Part shown: in pieces, positions 13,154 to 35,647 of the stretch
Layout: each line of letters begins with the position of its first letter
How positions within the stretch are numbered: the stretch's first letter is position 1
DNA from: Flavobacteriales bacterium
Lineage (GTDB): Bacteria > Bacteroidota > Bacteroidia > Flavobacteriales_D > Crocinitomicaceae
Assembly: GCA_013373595.1 (NCBI GenBank)
Contig: JABXHO010000128.1
Span: forward strand, 1-37,394
Direction: 5' to 3'
Length of the DNA stretch: 37,394 nt
Notes under the pieces: generated by a model
Database searches by the model: none
The model's input: only the letters and a program-made list of their open reading frames with translations
Told to the model about the DNA's origin: nothing
Translations under genes and position numbers: made by a program

Positions 13154-13714
13154 ATGGATGATTTCGTTAAAATGTTAGAAGGTCAATCCTTGAGGATTGT
13201 TGAAACGGCAGTCGTAATTATTCTGTACATTTTTCTTCGTTGGTTGTTCTCTAAGATCGTGAAAAGCCATCTGAGCCGAAGATTACTCCATGAAACCCGA
13301 GGAATGGCGGTGCGAAAGATCTTCCGCCTAGTTTTATTGATAATCAGTATTGTTTTCATTCTCATTATTTGGGGCGTCAATCAAACGGATTTAGCACTGT
13401 TCCTTGGTTCTGCATTAGCAGTTGTCGGTGTGGCGTTCTTCGCTCAATGGTCGATTTTATCGAATGTAACGTCGAGCATAATTCTGTTCTTTGGACATCC
13501 TGTGAAATTGAATGATGAAATCGTAATTCTCGAAGCAAAGGATTATGAAATTGAAGGGAAAGTAAAAGACATCGGTTTGTTCTTTATCACTTTGGAAACA
13601 CCAGACGGTGAAGATGTCACGCTACCCAATAATATTTTCATTTCGAAGAGTATAAAAAGTAAGGCTCAAGAGAATGTTGATGAGATCTCAAGTGAGGAAG
13701 AGCACCATGACTAG
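13154..13714 (+). CDS. small MscS-like mechanosensitive ion channel
   Basis: The 186-aa protein has two N-terminal hydrophobic segments (about residues 14-33 and 55-76). The MscS pore-lining helix and its hinge follow: FLGSALAVVGVAFFAQWSI, with the small Gly/Ala residues that pack the pore, then NVTSSIILFFGHPVKLNDEI. The beta domain that follows (GKVKDIGLFFITLETPDGEDVTLPNN) is the start of the MscS cytoplasmic vestibule. The protein ends soon afterwards, lacking the alpha/beta C-terminal domain of E. coli MscS (286 aa), so it is a minimal form. The last 8 bases overlap the next gene. Confidence 0.85.
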   Translation: MDDFVKMLEGQSLRIVETAVVIILYIFLRWLFSKIVKSHLSRRLLHETRGMAVRKIFRLVLLIISIVFILIIWGVNQTDLALFLGSALAVVGVAFFAQWSILSNVTSSIILFFGHPVKLNDEIVILEAKDYEIEGKVKDIGLFFITLETPDGEDVTLPNNIFISKSIKSKAQENVDEISSEEEHHD

Positions 13715-14066
13715 GCGATATAAGTGGCAGATTTTTCTCTACCTGTTTATTACAGTATCACTCATCATAACGAATTGCATTTTGGATTACCACAACTATG
13801 CATCAAACAGTAAGTTCCACGATTTAACGTACTTTCAACGAAATGCCGTTCGGGTTTCAGGATTGACAGAAGTTATTCTTTCGCCATTTCAAATAATCAG
13901 CTCTCTGTTCTTTAATATTGGTAATGTCCGCGATCATCAAAACATGAATGTTTTCATCTTTAAAATGATTTCCTTGCCCTTTTCCTTTTTGTGGTATTTT
14001 AAAACGATCAGGCTACAGCTGTTCGCGTTGCTCAGAAGGAAATTGATGAAACGAGAGAACGCTTGA
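13707..14066 (+). CDS. uncharacterised small membrane protein
   Basis: The 119-aa product is not recognised. It has an N-terminal transmembrane helix (WQIFLYLFITVSLIITNCIL, about residues 7-26) and a second hydrophobic stretch near the C-terminus (MISLPFSFLWYF), followed by a basic tail ending in RRKLMKRENA. I chose the ATG at 13707, which overlaps the end of the MscS-like gene by 8 bases; a TTG start further upstream would extend it by 11 residues into that gene. The overlap suggests translational coupling and perhaps a partner role for the channel, but this is inference. Confidence 0.6.
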   Translation: MTRRYKWQIFLYLFITVSLIITNCILDYHNYASNSKFHDLTYFQRNAVRVSGLTEVILSPFQIISSLFFNIGNVRDHQNMNVFIFKMISLPFSFLWYFKTIRLQLFALLRRKLMKRENA

Positions 14067-14068
14067 AA

Positions 14069-14095
14069 GTGAGCATGCTGTTGAAACATGCTCAC
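14069..14095. terminator. hairpin between convergent genes
   Basis: The arms GTGAGCATG (14069-14077) and CATGCTCAC (14087-14095) are perfectly complementary over 9 bp with a 9-base loop. The hairpin lies between the stops of two convergent genes (14066 and 14107). T-runs are short on both sides, so termination is likely but not strong. Confidence 0.55.
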
Positions 14096-14106: not shown

Positions 14107-14292
14107 TCATTCATTGAATCGCATTAAGAGGTGATCAATAGCGAGTATCACCGATCGAATTTCATCCCGTTGATCATACGCACAATGCTCCGATTGAAAA
14201 TCGGCAAGTTCACACTGCAACGCAAAGAGCTTTTTCGCAAGCCCTTTCACTTTCAAGTCACGTAACTGATCATCTGTCATAACTGTTTCCAT
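14107..14292 (-). CDS. 61-aa uncharacterised helical protein
   Basis: The small frame encodes a soluble, helix-prone protein with Leu/Lys and acidic residues (DLKVKGLAKKLFALQCELAD), two cysteines and no signal peptide. I do not recognise it. Support for its being real comes from its 5' region: an AGGA motif lies next to the first ATG, and the whole promoter-leader, through ATGGAAACA, is repeated in the array to its right. An alternative start is the ATG four codons in (MTDDQLRDL). A degenerate -7 box, TACGTAGC, sits at 14308-14315 on the same strand with a TTG 22 bp upstream. It is convergent with the MscS cluster and transcribed away from the array. Confidence 0.55.
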   Translation of the reverse strand: METVMTDDQLRDLKVKGLAKKLFALQCELADFQSEHCAYDQRDEIRSVILAIDHLLMRFNE

Positions 14293-14426
14293 ATTCCTGT
14301 TTTTTAGGCTACGTAAATGTCGCCTGATGGATCAAAACAAGACCTGCGTAGCAGTTTATACAGTCTTGTCAGTGATACATCTTGTGACATAAGTTTGCCT
14401 CAGAAAAACAGGAATATGGAAACATG
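14285..14426. repeat. inverted repeat of a promoter-leader unit
   Basis: The left arm (about 14285-14345, minus strand) is the promoter and start region of the 61-aa gene. The right arm (about 14361-14426, plus strand) is the first unit of the tandem array. Read 5' to 3', both run GTCTTG, GAT-CATC, GACAT, GCCT, then an identical 21-base block ending in ATATGGAAACA. About 15 bases separate the arms. The result is two divergent, back-to-back promoters of common origin. Confidence 0.8.
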
Positions 14427-14787
14427 AATGAGTCATGATTGAATAAGTTGAAAAGGGAAGTGGCGTAAATTGATTCTGTCGCGTGATTATTAGTAGGATA
14501 AATCAATGCACTTTATACAGTCCTTTCAGTGATACATCTGGTGGCATATGTTTGTCTCAGAAAATGGGAATATGGAAACATGAATGCATCATGATTGAGT
14601 AAGTTGAAAATGGAAGTGGCGCAAATTGATTGTGTCGCGTGATTATTAGTAGGATAGTTCAAAGCACTATGTGAAGCGATTCATACTACCCTGTCAATTA
14701 TACACCTTGTGACATACGTTTGCCTCAGAAAAACGGGAATATGGAAACATGAATGCGTCATGATTGAGTAAGTTGAAAAGGGAAGTG
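14351..14787 (+). repeat. tandem 157-bp repeat array, about 2.8 units, each with a promoter box
   Basis: Units begin at 14351, 14508 and 14664, so the period is 156-157 bp; the third has a ~12-base insertion near its start and ends at 14787. Each holds GTGACAT-type sequence, a perfect TAnnTTTG box (14390-14397 TAAGTTTG, 14547-14554 TATGTTTG, 14715-14722 TACGTTTG), a CTCAG-A-rich leader, GGAATATGGAAACATGAATG and ATGATTGA.TAAGTTGAAAA. The first two also share CGCGTGATTATTAGTAGGAT. In unit 1 a TTG (14366-14368) lies exactly 21 bp before the box. All ATGs after the leader meet stops within three to five codons, so no protein is encoded. Apart from this array, the 14293-14865 gap shows only a 22-codon frame at 14793-14861 that I do not accept as a gene. 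Confidence 0.85.
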
Positions 14788-18982: not shown

Positions 18983-19012
18983 TGGCATCATATCCATAAC
19001 GATGGAATAATG

Positions 19013-19141
19013 ATTTATACAGAAGAGGGTAGAGACAGGCTCGATGATCCTCTGGCAACCAACTTTAAGTGCGTCTTCGACGTATTGGAAAACCGGTGCC
19101 AATTCCTGATTCCTCTCAATGGTGAGTGGAAGAATATAAAT
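19013..19141 (+). promoter_or_regulatory. SAM-I (S-box) riboswitch controlling the methionine operon
   Basis: The leader carries the S-box core in order: AGAGGGTAGAGACAGGC (from about 19024), GATCCTCTGGCAACC (with GGCAACC at 19054-19060) and GGTGCCAATTCC (19095-19106). The closing P1 helix is ATTTATA (19013-19019) pairing with TATAAAT (19135-19141). This is the SAM-I aptamer, which binds S-adenosylmethionine and lowers expression when it is plentiful. A 115-codon frame over this region is incidental. Below it lie metX, hom, an OsmC-family gene and metZ, so the operon should be switched off by SAM. Confidence 0.92.
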
Positions 19142-19240
19142 TTAATTGGTATGAAAAACGTACAACAATTCTTCGTCGTCCAGCTTGGACACCCGTCACT
19201 CTCTCAACAGAGAAAATCAATCATCTTATTTTTTGAAATG

Positions 19241-19287: not shown

Positions 19288-19330
19288 AGCGCAATTTATC
19301 ATTGTGCCTCATCCTTTTATTTCAAAAAAA

Positions 19331-20401
19331 ATGTATTCAATTCAATTAACGACACCGTTCCAGTTGGAATCTGGTGAACAAATCGAAAACCTCGAAATCG
19401 GGTTTAATATCTATGGAAAACTTAATCCAGCGAGAGATAATGTTGTGTGGGTATGCCATGCGTTAACAGCAAATAGCGATGTCTTTTCGTGGTGGGAAGG
19501 ACTCTTTGGAGAAAATAAATTGTTCAATGCAGAAGATCATTTCATCGTATGTGTAAATGCGCTCGGATCATGCTACGGAACAACAGGTCCGAACTCTCCT
19601 TCAATCAACAAACGTCCATTGTTAGACGAATTCCCATTCATCACAACCCGTGATATGGCTCGGATTAATGAAGAGCTTCGTTTCATCTTGGGTATTGAAA
19701 AAATAGCACTTCTGATAGGAGCGTCACTGGGTGGACAACAAGCACTTGAGTGGGCCATTCAAGCACCGAACCTACATGAAAAACTGGCTTTGATTGCCAC
19801 AAATGCGCGCCATTCTGCCTACGGAATTGCCTTCAACGAAAGTCAACGTTTGGCGATTTTCTCAGATCCAACTTATGGTAATGGGAGAATTGACGGCGGT
19901 CGACAAGGCTTGATTGCCGCAAGAAGCATTGCCATGCTGAGCTATCGAACCTACAGTTCTTATGTGAAAACACAAACCAATCCCGGAAATCATGTCGTTG
20001 AATCTTTTTTGGCGAGTAGCTATCAAGAATATCAAGGAAGGAAACTCGCGGACCGTTTTAGCGCATATTCGTATGTCACGCTTTCTCGTGCTATGGACGC
20101 TCACAATGTGGGACGAAATCGGGAGTCAGTGGAGGCCGCGCTTTCATCAATTACTCCGAAAACCTTGGTGGTTGGAATTACAACGGATCAATTGTTTCCT
20201 GTTTCGGAACAACGCTTTTTAGCCAAACACATCGGTAATGCAAGTTATGCGGAAATCCAATCTGAATACGGTCACGACGGCTTTTTAATCGAATACAACC
20301 AACTCGAGAAACTACTCGATGCTTTTCTCACAAATCAACCTCCTGAAAACTACTCAGAAGTAATACAAAACAATCAAACACAATTTAAACTAGTAAAATG
20401 A
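19331..20401 (+). CDS. metX: homoserine O-acetyltransferase
   Basis: The 356-aa enzyme transfers an acetyl group from acetyl-CoA to homoserine, the committing step of methionine synthesis in this branch. It is an alpha/beta hydrolase-fold acyltransferase. The nucleophile elbow GASLGGQQALEWA carries Ser132, and the segments VCVNALGSCYGTTGP and PFITTRDMARINEELRF are diagnostic of MetX. The acid lies in ITTDQLFPV and the histidine in YGHDGFLIE. An in-frame GTG at 19304 would add nine residues but overlaps a possible promoter box, so I use ATG 19331. The stop overlaps the hom ATG (ATGA). Some MetX relatives use succinyl-CoA; this cannot be excluded by eye. Confidence 0.92.
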   Translation: MYSIQLTTPFQLESGEQIENLEIGFNIYGKLNPARDNVVWVCHALTANSDVFSWWEGLFGENKLFNAEDHFIVCVNALGSCYGTTGPNSPSINKRPLLDEFPFITTRDMARINEELRFILGIEKIALLIGASLGGQQALEWAIQAPNLHEKLALIATNARHSAYGIAFNESQRLAIFSDPTYGNGRIDGGRQGLIAARSIAMLSYRTYSSYVKTQTNPGNHVVESFLASSYQEYQGRKLADRFSAYSYVTLSRAMDAHNVGRNRESVEAALSSITPKTLVVGITTDQLFPVSEQRFLAKHIGNASYAEIQSEYGHDGFLIEYNQLEKLLDAFLTNQPPENYSEVIQNNQTQFKLVK

Positions 20402-29683: not shown

Positions 29684-32600
29684 ATGAAACTTCCAAAACT
29701 GATCGCTCTAGCGATAATACTTTCTCTATATACCTACTCTGCACAAGCGCAACGAGGTAAAGAAGGCGATGTTACCATTAGTGGTAATGTTACTGTGAAC
29801 ACCTTTACATATCTCACTGCCGATGCAGGAGCCGGGTCAACCTCAATTCAGGTAAACAACAATACGATGTCTGGTGGAGCTTTTGCTTCCAACCTTGCTG
29901 CTGGTGATCTCATCATGATCATGCAAATGCAAGGAGCATCGATGGATATCAATACCACTCCAACTGTTGTTTGGGGAGGGAATTATACCGTGCCTGATGA
30001 TTATATCACAGGGACATTTGGTGCAAACCCGCACTTTTGGGGGAGAATTACCAACTTCGGACAAGCCGGAATCTACGAGAGAGTGGAGGTGTTGAGTGTT
30101 TCGGGGAGTGGAACCATCAATTTGAATTGTGCCCTCACGAAAAATTTCGTCGCAAACGGTCATGTTCAGGTGGTGCGTATTCCACGTTACAACAACTTAA
30201 CTGTCCCAGGAGGAAATTCAATTACTACCACAAACTGGAATGGAAACAACGGTGGTGTGGTGGCACTCGAAGTAAATGGGAATTTATCACTGAATGGAAC
30301 AATATCAGCCACAGGAAACGGATTCCGTGGAGGAGCTTTGGATCCAAATAGCTACACAGCAGCCGGTGCGCCAACAGAAATTCGCGTTCTTGGTTCGTTC
30401 GATAACTTGGAAGGATCAGAAAAAGGTGAAGGAATTGGTGGTTTTTACACAGAATATGACGCTTTATTTTCACGCTACGGAATTGGAGCTCCAGCCAACG
30501 GTGGTGGAGGTGGAGGATACCAAAACGCTGGTGGTGGAGGTGGTTCCAACGTAGTTGTTGGAGGTTCTTACACAGGAAAAGGAAACCCGCAAGGATATAC
30601 CGCTGTTTGGGACTTAGAATCTGCCGGATTTGGTGGTTCAACATCTGCGGGTGGAGGTCGCGGTGGATACGCCATTTCTGACGTCGATCAAAATGAATTA
30701 GTCGTAGGGCCTGCCAACGCAGCATGGGGAGGTGACGACAGAAAAGTAACTGGAGGATTTGGAGGACATGAACTTCCATTCGTTGCAGACCGTCTCTTCG
30801 CAGGAGGAGGTGGAGGTGCTGGTGACCAAGATAGTGGTGAAGGCGGTGCCGGAGGTCGCGGTGGTGGTATCGTAGTGATCCAGGTATATGGAACAACTAC
30901 GGGATCTGGAACCATTGAAGCAAGAGGTTTAGCAGGACAAAATACAAATCCAAATAATGTTTCTCCGTCGAGCGGAACGCCGCGACGTGGTGTAGATGGT
31001 GCTGGAGGTGGTGGAGCCGGAGGTTCTGTGAGTATCGAAAATATTTCAGCAATTCCATCGTCAATTACAATCAACGTGAGCGGAGGAGATGGAGGAAATC
31101 AAAATATTACTCTACTCAACGTTTCTCCATTACCACCCTTGTCAACAGAAGCAGGAGGTCCTGGAGGATCAGGTGCAGGTGGTTTGATCCGAGTTGGATC
31201 AGGGGCACCAACAAAGATTGCTGCGGCAGGAGCACAAGGGGTAACGAACTCCTCACACATGGTGAATTTCCCGCCAAATGGCGCTACAGCAGGTTCTGAT
31301 GGATTCTGTTGTTATCCGAATAATCCAACATACAACATTTTAACATCGGATCAGTCAATTTGTTCTGGAGCATCAATAACACTTACTGCAACGAGACCAA
31401 GTGTTGGCTCGCCTGTGCCGAGTACCGCTTCCTTTGTTTGGTACGATGCCATGGTAGGTGGAACTCAAGTTGGAACAGGATCAAGTTTTACAACGCCTGC
31501 GTTAACGGCAACTACAACGTATTGGGTTGGAATCTGTCCAGGAACGTTCAGAACACCTGTTACAGTAACGATTCTCCCGCCTGATGATGCAACATTCTCT
31601 TATGCAGGATCACCTTACTGTTCGAATGGAACTGATCCTACGCCTACAGTTACGGGACTTGCAGGTGGAACATTCTCGAGCACAGCAGGTTTGTCAATCA
31701 ATAGCTCTACTGGAACGATTGATTTGAGTGCTTCCACACCAGGAACCTACACTGTAACTTACACGACTTCTGGACCATGTCCAAATTCAAGTACGCAATC
31801 AATAACAATCAATGCTTTAGACGATGCTACATTCTCGTATGCATCTGCTTCGTATTGTGTGGGTGAACCTGATCCAACCCCAACCATAACAGGCGTAGCG
31901 GGAGGTACGTTCTCAAGTACAGCAGGGTTGTCGATTAATGCTTCTTCTGGAGTAATTGACTTGAGTGCATCCACACCAGGATCATATACAATTACGTATA
32001 CAACTTCAGGTTCGTGTTCTAATTCCTCGACATTTGCGATGACCATTACAACGCTAGAGGATGCGAGTTTTAGTTACAGTGCGGCATCTTACTGTGTGGC
32101 AAATACAGATCCAACGCCAACCGTAACGGGTGTGGCTGGTGGAACGTTCTCAAGTACCGCAGGATTGTCAATTGACGCTTCTACGGGAACAATCGATTTG
32201 AGTGCTTCAACACCAGGAACCTATACGGTAACGTATACAACATCAGGGGCATGTTCTAACTCAAGTACACAATCGGTAACAATTACCTCTCTTGATGATG
32301 CTTCCTTTAACTATTCGGCAGCAGCATATTGCGCAAACGATACCGACCCAATTCCAACAATCACGGGAGTAGCAGGGGGAGCATTCTCAAGTACAGCGGG
32401 ATTATCGATTAACGCTTCTACTGGAGCAATTGATGTAAGTACATCAACTCCTGGAACGTATACAGTTACGTACACAACTTCTGGAGCATGTGCAAATTCA
32501 TCAAATGTTTCTGTGACCATCAACGCATTAGACGATGCATCTTTTAGTTATTCTGCTGCAGCCTACTGTGCAAATGATACAGATCCAACTCCAACTGTTA

Positions 32601-35600
32601 CAGGTTTGGCAGGAGGAACATTCTCAAGCACGGCTGGTTTATCAATTAATGTATCAACAGGAGTGGTTGACTTGAGTGCTTCCACACCGGGAACCTACAC
32701 AATAACATACACGACAAGTGGAACATGTTCCAATTCGAGCAACGTTAGTATGACAGTGAATGCATTAGATGATGCTTCATTCAGTTATTCATCACCAAGT
32801 TATTGTTTAGCTCAAGCTGATCCAACACCTACGGTTACAGGCTTAGGCGGAGGATCGTTCTCGAGTTCAGCTGGTTTGGTAATTAACGCCTCAACGGGGA
32901 CAATTGATGTGAGTGCTTCTACGCCGGGTTCATATGTTGTGACGTACGCAACAGCAGGACCTTGTCCAAATAGTGCCACGTTCAATGTGTCAATTACAGC
33001 ACTTGATGATGCAAGCTTCAATTATTCAGCAGCGGCATATTGTTTAGACGCAGCAGACCCAACTCCAACAATTACGGGTGTTTCTGGGGGAGCATTCTCT
33101 AGCACAGCTGGTTTAGTGATTAATACATCAACGGGTGCCATTGATGTAAGTACATCAACGCCTGGAACGTATACAGTAACCTATGCAACATCTGGATCAT
33201 GTGCGAATTCAACGAATGTTTCAGTCACGATCAATGCGTTGGATGATGCAAGCTTTAGCTATTCAGCGGCAGCGTACTGTGCAATAGATACCGATCCAAC
33301 TCCAACGGTTACAGGATTAGCAGGAGGAACATTCTCAAGTGCAGCTGGATTGTCAATTGATGCATCGACAGGAGTTGTCGATTTAAGCGCATCAACACCA
33401 GGAACGTACACAGTGACGTATACGACTTCAGGTACGTGTCCAAATTCAAGTAATGTTAGTTTGACAGTGAACGCAACAGATGATGCATCGTTCAGTTATG
33501 GAGCAGCGTCATATTGTTCGAATGATACAGACCCTACACCAACGGTTACAGGATTGGCAGGAGGTTCATTCTCAAGTACAGCAGGTTTATCAATCAATGC
33601 ATCAACAGGTGTAATTGATTTGAGTGCATCGACCACAGGGTCATACGTCGTAACGTATACAACTTCAGGTTCATGTCCGAACTCAAGTACAGTGAATGTT
33701 ACCGTGAATGCAATGGATGATGCATCGTTTGCTTACGGAGCGGCTTCTTACTGCGCAGACGCAACAGATCCAACTCCAACAGTTACTGGTTTGGCAGGGG
33801 GAACGTTCTCTAGTACAGCAGGACTTTCCATCAATGCGTCGACAGGTGTAATTGATGTGAGTGCAAGCACTCCTGGAGCTTATGTTGTTACGTATACTAC
33901 TTCGGGATCATGTCCGAATACGAGCACTGTCAATGTTACGATTAATGCATTGGACGATGCTACGTTTAGTTATGGAGCAGCTTCTTACTGTACGAATGCA
34001 ACAGACCCAACACCAACCGTATCTGGCTTGGCTGGAGGAACATTCTCAAGCACTGCAGGTTTATCATTGGATACTTCAACGGGAGCGATTGATGTGAGTG
34101 CATCAACAGCAGGAACGTACACGATTACCTATACGACCTCTGGTGCTTGTCCAAATTCAAGCACGGCAACGGTCACAATTAACACGATGGATGATGCATC
34201 ATTCTCGTATGCTTCAACAAGCTACTGTGTGTCTGGAACAGACCCAAGTCCAACAGTTACAGGATTGTCAGGTGGAACCTTTACCTCAACGGCAGGATTG
34301 GTCATTGACGCAACGACTGGACAAATCGATGTAAGTGCATCCACGATTGGATCATATACCGTTACCTACACGACAGCAGGAGCTTGTCCAAATACAGCAA
34401 CAGCACCTATTACAATTCTTTCTGCTGACGATGCTGCATTCACAATGACAGCAACATGTGATGGAGGAACGGCATCTGTGCCTGGAACAACAGGTGGAGT
34501 ATTCTCATTGGTGGGAACACCTGCGGGAGTAACAATTGATCCAGCAACGGGGACTGTAACAGGAGGTACTTCAGGAGCAACTTATACGGTTCAGTATGCA
34601 ACATCAGGAGCATGTGCCGCGAGTTCAACAGCATCCGTAACCGTACTCACAAGTCCAGTAATTGATCCAATTGCGGACATTACAGCATGTGATCAGGCGA
34701 ACTTACCTACAATTACTGGAACTGGTTTCAGTGGAGATGAGGCCTTCTATAATGACTTACAATCAAATGGAGGTGTTCAAATCACAGGACCAGTGACAAG
34801 TTCACAAACCGTTTATGTGTACGCAACGAACTCAGGGTGTTCAGATGAAATTAGTTTCAATGTAACCATTAACACAACGGATGATCCGACGTTCTCACTC
34901 ACGAATTTCTGTGAAGGTGCTGCTAACTCCGCATCGATTTCAGGAACAACTGGAGGAACCTTCGATTTCAATCCTGCGGTAACGGATGGAGCAACAATTG
35001 ATGCAACAACTGGAGAAATTTCGAATGGTGTGGCAGGAACAATTTATTCTGTTGAGTACACAACAACTGGAGCTTGTCCTGCTAGTGCGGTAGAAACAGT
35101 AGAAGTATATGCTATTCCAGTTGCACCTACGGTGAGTTCGGATCAAACGTATTGCTCGGGTGATGTTTTGGCGCCAATGACGGCCTCTACACCAAGTGGA
35201 ACATTGACATGGTATGATGATTTCGGATTAACAAATGTAATCGGAACTGGTTCTAGTCAATCACCATACTCGTTTGATGGAACTACAACATATTACGTGA
35301 CAGTCACAAATAACGGCTGTGAAAGTCCTGAAAGCACAATCGCAATCACCATTGAAGATTGTGATATTATTGTTCCAACTGCGTTCACACCAGATAACGA
35401 CGGAGCGAACGATGATTGGGAATTGGTCAACATAGATGTAATCTATCCGAATAATATCGTTAGAGTATACAACCGATGGGGGAACTTAGTGTTTGAGTCT
35501 CCAGAAGGTGACTATGACAACAATCGTTGGAATGGAACGTTTAATGGAGAGATGCTCCCTGTTGGATCGTATTATTACATCATCGAACCAAACCAAGAAG

Positions 35601-35647
35601 GAGTAGAATCGAAATCTGGAAGTGTTTCGATCATTTTAGGAAATTAA
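29684..35647 (+). CDS. giant T9SS-secreted surface protein with twelve 79-aa repeats
   Basis: The 1987-aa protein has a signal peptide (IALAIILSLYTYSAQAQ) and an N-terminal beta-rich domain. A glycine-rich region follows at about residues 274-505 (runs such as GGGGGGYQNAGGGGGSN), then an Ig-like module near 549-632. Twelve 79-residue repeats cover 634-1581. Each has DDA(S/T)F, YC, a conserved PTPT(V/I)TG, GG(T/A)FSS(T)AGL, S(T)G, YTVTY and SG-C, so two cysteines per repeat could form one disulfide. Two degenerate copies and another Ig-like module lead to a type B T9SS (gliding-motility-associated) C-terminus, VPTAFTPDNDGANDDW ... NRWGNLVFES. It is likely a surface adhesin or filament. A SiaB-like and a HDAC-family gene follow within 14 and 3 bp. 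Confidence 0.88.
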   Translation: MKLPKLIALAIILSLYTYSAQAQRGKEGDVTISGNVTVNTFTYLTADAGAGSTSIQVNNNTMSGGAFASNLAAGDLIMIMQMQGASMDINTTPTVVWGGNYTVPDDYITGTFGANPHFWGRITNFGQAGIYERVEVLSVSGSGTINLNCALTKNFVANGHVQVVRIPRYNNLTVPGGNSITTTNWNGNNGGVVALEVNGNLSLNGTISATGNGFRGGALDPNSYTAAGAPTEIRVLGSFDNLEGSEKGEGIGGFYTEYDALFSRYGIGAPANGGGGGGYQNAGGGGGSNVVVGGSYTGKGNPQGYTAVWDLESAGFGGSTSAGGGRGGYAISDVDQNELVVGPANAAWGGDDRKVTGGFGGHELPFVADRLFAGGGGGAGDQDSGEGGAGGRGGGIVVIQVYGTTTGSGTIEARGLAGQNTNPNNVSPSSGTPRRGVDGAGGGGAGGSVSIENISAIPSSITINVSGGDGGNQNITLLNVSPLPPLSTEAGGPGGSGAGGLIRVGSGAPTKIAAAGAQGVTNSSHMVNFPPNGATAGSDGFCCYPNNPTYNILTSDQSICSGASITLTATRPSVGSPVPSTASFVWYDAMVGGTQVGTGSSFTTPALTATTTYWVGICPGTFRTPVTVTILPPDDATFSYAGSPYCSNGTDPTPTVTGLAGGTFSSTAGLSINSSTGTIDLSASTPGTYTVTYTTSGPCPNSSTQSITINALDDATFSYASASYCVGEPDPTPTITGVAGGTFSSTAGLSINASSGVIDLSASTPGSYTITYTTSGSCSNSSTFAMTITTLEDASFSYSAASYCVANTDPTPTVTGVAGGTFSSTAGLSIDASTGTIDLSASTPGTYTVTYTTSGACSNSSTQSVTITSLDDASFNYSAAAYCANDTDPIPTITGVAGGAFSSTAGLSINASTGAIDVSTSTPGTYTVTYTTSGACANSSNVSVTINALDDASFSYSAAAYCANDTDPTPTVTGLAGGTFSSTAGLSINVSTGVVDLSASTPGTYTITYTTSGTCSNSSNVSMTVNALDDASFSYSSPSYCLAQADPTPTVTGLGGGSFSSSAGLVINASTGTIDVSASTPGSYVVTYATAGPCPNSATFNVSITALDDASFNYSAAAYCLDAADPTPTITGVSGGAFSSTAGLVINTSTGAIDVSTSTPGTYTVTYATSGSCANSTNVSVTINALDDASFSYSAAAYCAIDTDPTPTVTGLAGGTFSSAAGLSIDASTGVVDLSASTPGTYTVTYTTSGTCPNSSNVSLTVNATDDASFSYGAASYCSNDTDPTPTVTGLAGGSFSSTAGLSINASTGVIDLSASTTGSYVVTYTTSGSCPNSSTVNVTVNAMDDASFAYGAASYCADATDPTPTVTGLAGGTFSSTAGLSINASTGVIDVSASTPGAYVVTYTTSGSCPNTSTVNVTINALDDATFSYGAASYCTNATDPTPTVSGLAGGTFSSTAGLSLDTSTGAIDVSASTAGTYTITYTTSGACPNSSTATVTINTMDDASFSYASTSYCVSGTDPSPTVTGLSGGTFTSTAGLVIDATTGQIDVSASTIGSYTVTYTTAGACPNTATAPITILSADDAAFTMTATCDGGTASVPGTTGGVFSLVGTPAGVTIDPATGTVTGGTSGATYTVQYATSGACAASSTASVTVLTSPVIDPIADITACDQANLPTITGTGFSGDEAFYNDLQSNGGVQITGPVTSSQTVYVYATNSGCSDEISFNVTINTTDDPTFSLTNFCEGAANSASISGTTGGTFDFNPAVTDGATIDATTGEISNGVAGTIYSVEYTTTGACPASAVETVEVYAIPVAPTVSSDQTYCSGDVLAPMTASTPSGTLTWYDDFGLTNVIGTGSSQSPYSFDGTTTYYVTVTNNGCESPESTIAITIEDCDIIVPTAFTPDNDGANDDWELVNIDVIYPNNIVRVYNRWGNLVFESPEGDYDNNRWNGTFNGEMLPVGSYYYIIEPNQEGVESKSGSVSIILGN
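31583..34426 (+). repeat. twelve exact 237-bp coding repeats
   Basis: The repeat start DDA/EDA recurs at 31583, 31820, 32057, 32294 and so on to 34427, so twelve units fill 2844 bp with no insertion or deletion. Neighbouring units differ by many synonymous codon changes (for example GATGAT against GACGAT), while the key residues stay. The array is thus old and under protein-level selection rather than freshly expanded. Confidence 0.92.

Follow-up and report, generated by a model that had tools for sequence, protein, structure and literature searches.

A hairpin and small-gene cassette in Flavobacteriales genomes as a putative fold-back promoter

Promoters that work from single-stranded DNA have been described for genes that enter cells on conjugative plasmids. 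As set out in excerpts of three reports (PMC9849209, PMC11541004, PMC8708921), Frpo of plasmid F is a single-stranded DNA stem-loop containing -10 and -35 boxes, which drives genes of the leading region before the second strand is synthesised. Our literature search, which lay mostly outside subscription papers, found nothing joining Frpo and Bacteroidota, or single-stranded DNA promoters and natural transformation, nor, among the titles listed, a chromosomal single-stranded DNA promoter. Bacteroidota promoters have boxes of their own, TAnnTTTG at -7 and TTTG near -33, and the excerpted text of the same source gives the -33 motif as absent from the Flavobacterium johnsoniae data (PMC7366714). 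Here we describe a locus from a Flavobacteriales contig in which the start of a 61-aa gene pairs with a repeat unit beside it (U1), forming a long imperfect hairpin with boxes of this type. The window, meaning the whole stretch of DNA that was analysed, is 37,394 nucleotides long, and the features of the locus are given in Table 1.

Table 1 Features of the hairpin locus in the window
Feature	Position	Strand	Remark
Terminator-like inverted repeat GTGAGCATG / CATGCTCAC	14069-14095	-	Directly 3' of the 61-aa gene; judged by eye
61-aa gene	14107-14292	-	Predicted two-helix protein; family of 59-83 aa proteins behind the hairpin
Proximal arm	14270-14343	+	Would be the template arm upon + strand folding; antisense of gene leader and first codons; from folds and arm alignment
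U1	14340-14496	+	Full direct unit
Apical stem CTGC-GTA-GCAG	14344-14354	+	Conserved in cassette alignment A5
Bulge TTTATACA	14355-14362	+	Immediately upstream of -33; diverged from consensus TTCATTTTA, 3/9 matches
U1 distal arm	14363-14440	+	Putative non-template arm; partner of 14270-14343; from inverted-repeat search and folds
U1 -33 TTG	14366-14368	+	On distal arm
U1 -7 box TAAGTTTG	14390-14397	+	Perfect TAnnTTTG; spacer 21 nt
U2	14497-14664	+	Full direct unit; tandem extra copy of hairpin distal arm; -33 degraded
U2 -7 box TATGTTTG	14547-14554	+	Perfect TAnnTTTG
U3	14665 to about 14787	+	Partial direct unit; extra distal-arm copy; -33 degraded
U3 -7 box TACGTTTG	14715-14722	+	Perfect TAnnTTTG

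An earlier note on this DNA had read the locus as an array of about 2.8 direct promoter-leader units to the right of the gene, with one further unit inverted at the gene start, and this layout was recovered. Two full units and one partial unit were found, with start-to-start distances of about 157 and 168 bp and identities of 81-90% over the best-matching segments (64% where the U3 comparison overruns the end of the copy). The inverted copy, at the beginning of the 61-aa gene, is more diverged and has a best local alignment score of 80, against a mean of 30 and a maximum of 60 in 500 first-order Markov shuffles; it lacks TAnnTTTG. The box is exact in all three direct units, which also retain the leader ATGGAAACATGAATG and run into stop codons soon after it, again as had been described. 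The -33 TTG is kept in U1 only, the aligned place reading CTT in U2 and CTG in U3.

The window hairpin is centred near 14349, with z -7.7 for the gene strand folded as RNA and z -8.1 for the opposite strand with DNA parameters, and U2 and U3 are extra distal arms. The leader is repeated in the units because its sequence there is complementary to the leader and start codon of the real gene. The repeats are real, but they are not free-standing promoter-leader or small-RNA units. That promoters and leaders were retained without a reading frame stands as an observation; the meaning drawn from it, a tandem small-RNA family or decoy leaders, is not supported, because what the ~50 related copies conserve is a pairing hairpin at whose base a small gene begins. 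The small-RNA family was dropped since the unit has no second genomic copy and is conserved as a partner of the gene start. Searched without the gene and the second arm, the 157-bp unit had no further match within its own genome, whereas relatives carry the hairpin together with the gene. The note had also staked its reading on conservation of the box, and a TAnnTTTG-like box is indeed conserved in related genomes; covariance folding, which it had proposed, gave a strongly covarying stem, but as a hairpin of gene start and U1.

The wider family was reached through L004, a weak protein relative of the 61-aa protein that also has the sequence upstream of the start codon in common with it. Searching with a word from upstream of the L004 start codon gave five loci in the own genome, each a module of 117-136 nt ending at the start-codon region of a 61-67 aa ORF, with a terminator-like repeat after the stop at each (by eye). 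The L004 locus adjoins a gene that we take to be gyrB, and the genes neighbouring the window locus, L004 and L095 look like ordinary chromosomal genes. A covariance model built from the five copies had convincing matches in 4/34 genomes of the genus (G000, G020, G022, G047); weak matches in G013 and G048 (L112, L113), without the ORF family and the bulge, were rejected and stand outside all counts. G044, where the hairpin is weaker (z -1.7), was added by a protein profile with which 240 genomes of the family were searched. The second covariance model reached a second genus (G090, G092), matching six of the 240 genomes in all, and the third gave 31 matches in 7/9 second-genus genomes, from which 30 copies were parsed. 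Altogether, the hairpin and small-gene cassette occurs in 12 genomes of two genera in one family, carried by 5/34 genomes of the first genus (G044 weakly) and 7/9 of the second. When close relatives were searched by protein sequence alone, no family members beyond the own genome came up; the covariance model did detect them.

An ORF lies at the stem base in 18/22 first-genus copies (absent from L116, L120, L121 and L129) and in 27/30 parsed second-genus copies (absent from L446, L454 and L461). In L116, L120, L121, L129, L446 and L454 the small ORF is lost or broken with the hairpin still present, so the hairpin appears to outlive the gene for some time. The copy counts do not include matches that echo the palindrome on the opposite strand (e.g. 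L131, L133) or tandem extras (L132, L134), and neither copies from one genome nor those from sister species can be taken as independent.

Read on the strand opposite the gene, the distal arm has a TTG-like box at -33 and a TAnnTTTG-like box at -7, separated by 18-21 nt (within the range searched). The -7 box matches at 5/6 positions or better on the distal arm of 44/49 parsed copies, compared to 3/49 on the gene-strand arm. These 49 are 51 copies minus L123 (box misplaced in parsing) and L441 (second arm not found); L110, whose box was likewise misplaced, is counted among them as a miss and L461 is not in the set. First-genus exceptions, with box or distances off, are L117, L121, L125, L143 and partly L111 (G020, G044). 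The apex is 10-55 nt long across copies, and the gene-strand -33 lies 49-55 nt upstream of the start codon in 22/26 copies and 42-66 nt in all. Just upstream of -33, a bulge matching TTCATTTTA at 7/9 positions or better occurs in 41/51 copies, the window bulge being an exception, and the largest length changes also fall upstream of -33, at the bulge position. The -7 bubble is modest: the first three positions of the -7 are 45-59% unpaired, but 55-64% is reached just after -33 as well, in a profile with the spacer fixed at 21 (first genus) or 19 (second), which blurs columns by one or two.

Taken together, the sequences and predicted folds suggest that the hairpin is probably a fold-back promoter, working in the manner of Frpo and driving the small gene. 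If the + strand became single-stranded, or were extruded as a cruciform, the proximal arm would pair with the U1 distal arm, and the folded stem would constitute a Bacteroidota-type promoter, in which the distal arm, bearing the -33 TTG and the -7 TAAGTTTG, would be the non-template strand and the proximal arm the template, with the bulge just upstream of -33. RNA polymerase running from apex to base would exit the stem into the antisense of the 61-aa gene, so that the gene would be transcribed from the folded single strand, giving an mRNA whose leader is short and A-rich. In duplex DNA the boxes would face away from the gene, whose own strand has a poor -7 only, and the small gene would therefore be mostly quiet. 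U2 and U3, as tandem duplicates of the promoter arm, could pair with this template arm too. We infer the use of the stem by RNA polymerase, its triggering by single-stranded (or extruded) DNA and the role of the protein.

Pairing is maintained through sequence change. In the five own-genome copies, aligned with MAFFT without structure and given the RNAalifold stem, 13/29 pairs had changed on both sides, compared to 1-5 double-changed pairs when partners were slid by 1-3 columns. Across 22 copies the figures were 22/29 against 10-14 slid, in a model-fitted alignment that leans to the model. The spacer stems of L123, L128 and L117 have little sequence in common between loci and are still paired. 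Such strong covariation would also fit an RNA-level structure, either a 5' leader in which the 61-aa mRNA hides its start codon or a hairpin RNA transcribed antisense, from the + strand, and pairing with that leader; the stem does extend through the start codon. Folds of the gene strand as RNA also reach z -3.3 to -7.7 in 4/5 own-genome loci, with L100 as the exception (z +0.88). We nevertheless regard a structure acting in RNA, though the chief rival reading, as unlikely. The leader version, our initial assumption, lost ground because the wobbles (first genus), the folding energies and the promoter boxes all favoured the opposite strand. In 21 first-genus copies, 80 arm mismatches would be G.T wobbles on the strand opposite the gene versus 29 on the gene strand, and 24 versus 4 in the inner non-coding stem, whereas 18 second-genus copies had no strand lean (40 to 39). 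With DNA energies, the opposite strand folded more stably in 24/26 copies (exceptions L123 and L128) and in 25/30 of the second-genus set, the two sets having four copies in common. Against this strand argument, the F plasmid Frpo2 fold has no strand preference, at -66.3 for the gene strand versus -66.1 for the opposite strand. An RNA-level structure would also leave the TTG/TAnnTTTG pair on the opposite strand of the stem unexplained. Upstream on the gene strand, promoter-like matches are scattered, with none at a fixed place, no antisense-RNA promoter inside the small gene is conserved among the copies, and the hairpin had no match in Rfam 15 at gathering score.

The box pattern also bears on a promoter acting in duplex DNA. 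Back-to-back promoters, one gene-ward and one outward, could lie in an inverted repeat whose arms are homogenised by palindrome correction, and this would account for the CTTG-like -33 kept on both arms and for the consensus -7 of the outward arm. However, the gene-side -7 is poor, with a mean match of 3.2 of 6 versus 5.0 of 6 on the outward arm, the window contains no ORF in the outward direction, and the bulge, the apex and the paired, sequence-free spacer would have no role. We consider such a divergent arrangement quite improbable.

It is more improbable still that the cassette is a decaying, functionless duplication, in which a gene start happened to be copied in inverted and tandem form. 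U2 and U3 do lack both the -33 and an ORF, and L433 and some other copies look decayed, but hairpin, box and gene are retained in ~50 copies from 12 genomes, and double changes preserve the pairs. For U2 and U3 themselves the decay reading may well hold. Their predicted pairing with the proximal arm (-30.3 kcal/mol for U2 and -32.6 for U3, with -38.0 for U1) lies far from the shuffle averages of -9.3 to -10.0, and the loss of the -33 TTG favours decay; they may be alternative arms or, just as likely, decaying copies. Extra tandem copies were noticed in passing at two loci among the ~50 related copies, the window and contig C155 of G047 (L128, contig positions 3000-3600). The latter has three ~150 bp units before a working gene, and its extras include more of the second arm than those of the window. 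Least credible is an invertible promoter, of the kind known from Bacteroides (PMC4747536, PMC8748976), in which the segment between the arms would flip in phase variation and switch the gene on: inverted repeats do flank a promoter now facing away from the gene, but comparison across loci did not reveal both orientations, the box arm pointing away in 44/49 copies and towards the gene in only 3/49, all of which also have the outward box, and the pairing extends inside the segment, where inversion has no need of it.

The putative fold-back promoter is followed by a family of small proteins. The AlphaFold model of the 61-aa protein is a two-helix hairpin (mean pLDDT 84.3, pTM 0.63). Searches of Pfam, NCBIfam, PADLOC, PHROG and PDB sequences gave no convincing known family: the best Pfam match among 17 members had E 0.016, two members had no NCBIfam match, PADLOC matched 1/17 members weakly (0.0032), PHROG weakly matched one (0.0067), and the best PDB sequence for the family profile (A6) was ribosomal protein uL29, also weak (E 0.016). 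The latter is likewise a two-helix hairpin, of about 62 residues, a resemblance that we take as a lead only. Estimates of dN/dS were uninformative, with 4/7 pairs at 0.15-0.51 at high divergence and three saturated. On the structural model and these searches, we conclude that the small proteins probably form an undescribed helical-hairpin family.

Three other features of the window were observed alongside. A 130-aa ORF (13674-14066, +) without Pfam or NCBIfam match converges on the 61-aa gene. A SAM riboswitch (RF00162, 62.2 bits, 19012-19142, +) is the only Rfam match in the window; the ORF downstream of it (19304-20401) resembles what we take to be a homoserine O-acetyltransferase, presumably an ordinary arrangement. 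A 1987-aa ORF (29684-35647, +) has many near-identical repeats around the words TVTGLAGGTFSSTAGLSI and resembles a secreted adhesin.

We also searched beyond the cassette models with a blind pattern of bulge, -33 and -7, without structure, using the reversed pattern as control. Among 399 genomes of the order this gave five sites versus none for the reversed pattern. One site was already known, three of the four new ones (L284, L286, L288) have a hairpin and a small ORF, and the fourth (L285) does not. Within the own genome, loose bulge matches were not in excess (295 versus 337 for the reversed pattern), and the best 30 of the 295 contained a hairpin in three cases, all known loci. A phylum-wide pattern in 395 genomes had three matches versus one in the control, none convincing: L434, inside a coding gene, and L435, an ordinary promoter, are taken as chance, and L433 may be a decayed cassette copy.

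In viral contigs, each of two patterns matched at least 120 stretches, mostly by chance. The first gave at least one strong hairpin, in 110 testable sites among the matches listed. The second pattern, in both scans, gave at least five hairpins with z below -4 in the 114 testable matches listed (L243, L376, L317, L325 and L398, with L317 and L325 the same sequence), and the clear cases among the matches listed combine a canonical-type promoter with the same bulge. An ORF stands at the expected place behind a Shine-Dalgarno-like leader in L243 (780-960), and L317 has an 80-aa ORF, but in L398 no clear gene stands there. At the hairpin base of L376 is a 521-aa ORF, which we take to be a serine recombinase. 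The contigs of L243, L376, L317/L325 and L398/L399 are viral or mobile-element contigs with a bulged hairpin. Fold-back promoters are possibly a wide class.

More tentatively, and with some doubt, chromosomes may carry dispersed fold-back promoters that are activated by single-stranded DNA and marked by a bulge T[TG]CATTTYA before -35/-33, and that would serve as genome-encoded sensors of single-stranded DNA. The bulge signature would then be common to the F plasmid and a few phage or mobile-element contigs, and the multicopy small helical proteins would be on only when their locus is single-stranded or extruded, for instance in incoming transforming DNA or at gaps in damaged forks. If this is true, single-stranded DNA itself would be a gene switch outside conjugation, present in multiple copies on apparent chromosomes of two genera. 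The ~50 natural variants would make the rules of such promoters (spacer, bubble, bulge) readable, and the common bulge would suggest that something, perhaps RNA polymerase or SSB, contacts it specifically.

Several known systems have features in common with the cassette. Type I toxin-antitoxin loci are multicopy small genes with a structured upstream region, encoding a hydrophobic peptide, whereas the cassette protein, from its model and sequence, is a charged two-helix hairpin. 6S RNA is a long hairpin whose bubble mimics an open promoter and whose families are in Rfam; unlike it, the cassette had no Rfam match, occurs in several copies per genome and has a gene at a nearly fixed distance. 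The invertible promoters of Bacteroidales also lie within inverted repeats, but in the cassette the pairing runs through the promoter spacer and the orientation is practically constant. The closest likeness is to the Frpo/ssi elements of F and ColIb-P9, which in the excerpted descriptions are long imperfect hairpins with -35/-10 type boxes within the stem and a gene read from the folded strand as template. Correspondingly, the cassette has an inverted repeat predicted to form a single-stranded DNA stem-loop (DNA folds, covariation), boxes that would be reconstituted on the non-template arm, of Bacteroidota type (44/49 copies), and a gene downstream for which the folded strand would be the template (18/22 and 27/30 copies). 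It differs from Frpo/ssi in its TTG and TAnnTTTG boxes and in being apparently chromosomal and multicopy within a genome, every copy preceding a single small gene. In sequence, the two were compared at bulge and box only, using F Frpo stretches shortened in the distal arm: a bulge T[TG]CATTT.. stands directly before -35/-33 in both, the F plasmid bulges TTCATTTA (Frpo2) and TGCATTTCA (Frpo1) directly preceding CCCTGGAC or CCCCTGGAC. In the F Frpo fold, the position of ssb relative to the hairpin is that of the small gene in the cassette, on the same side. Without claiming membership, we therefore liken the cassette to the plasmid Frpo group in how it would work.
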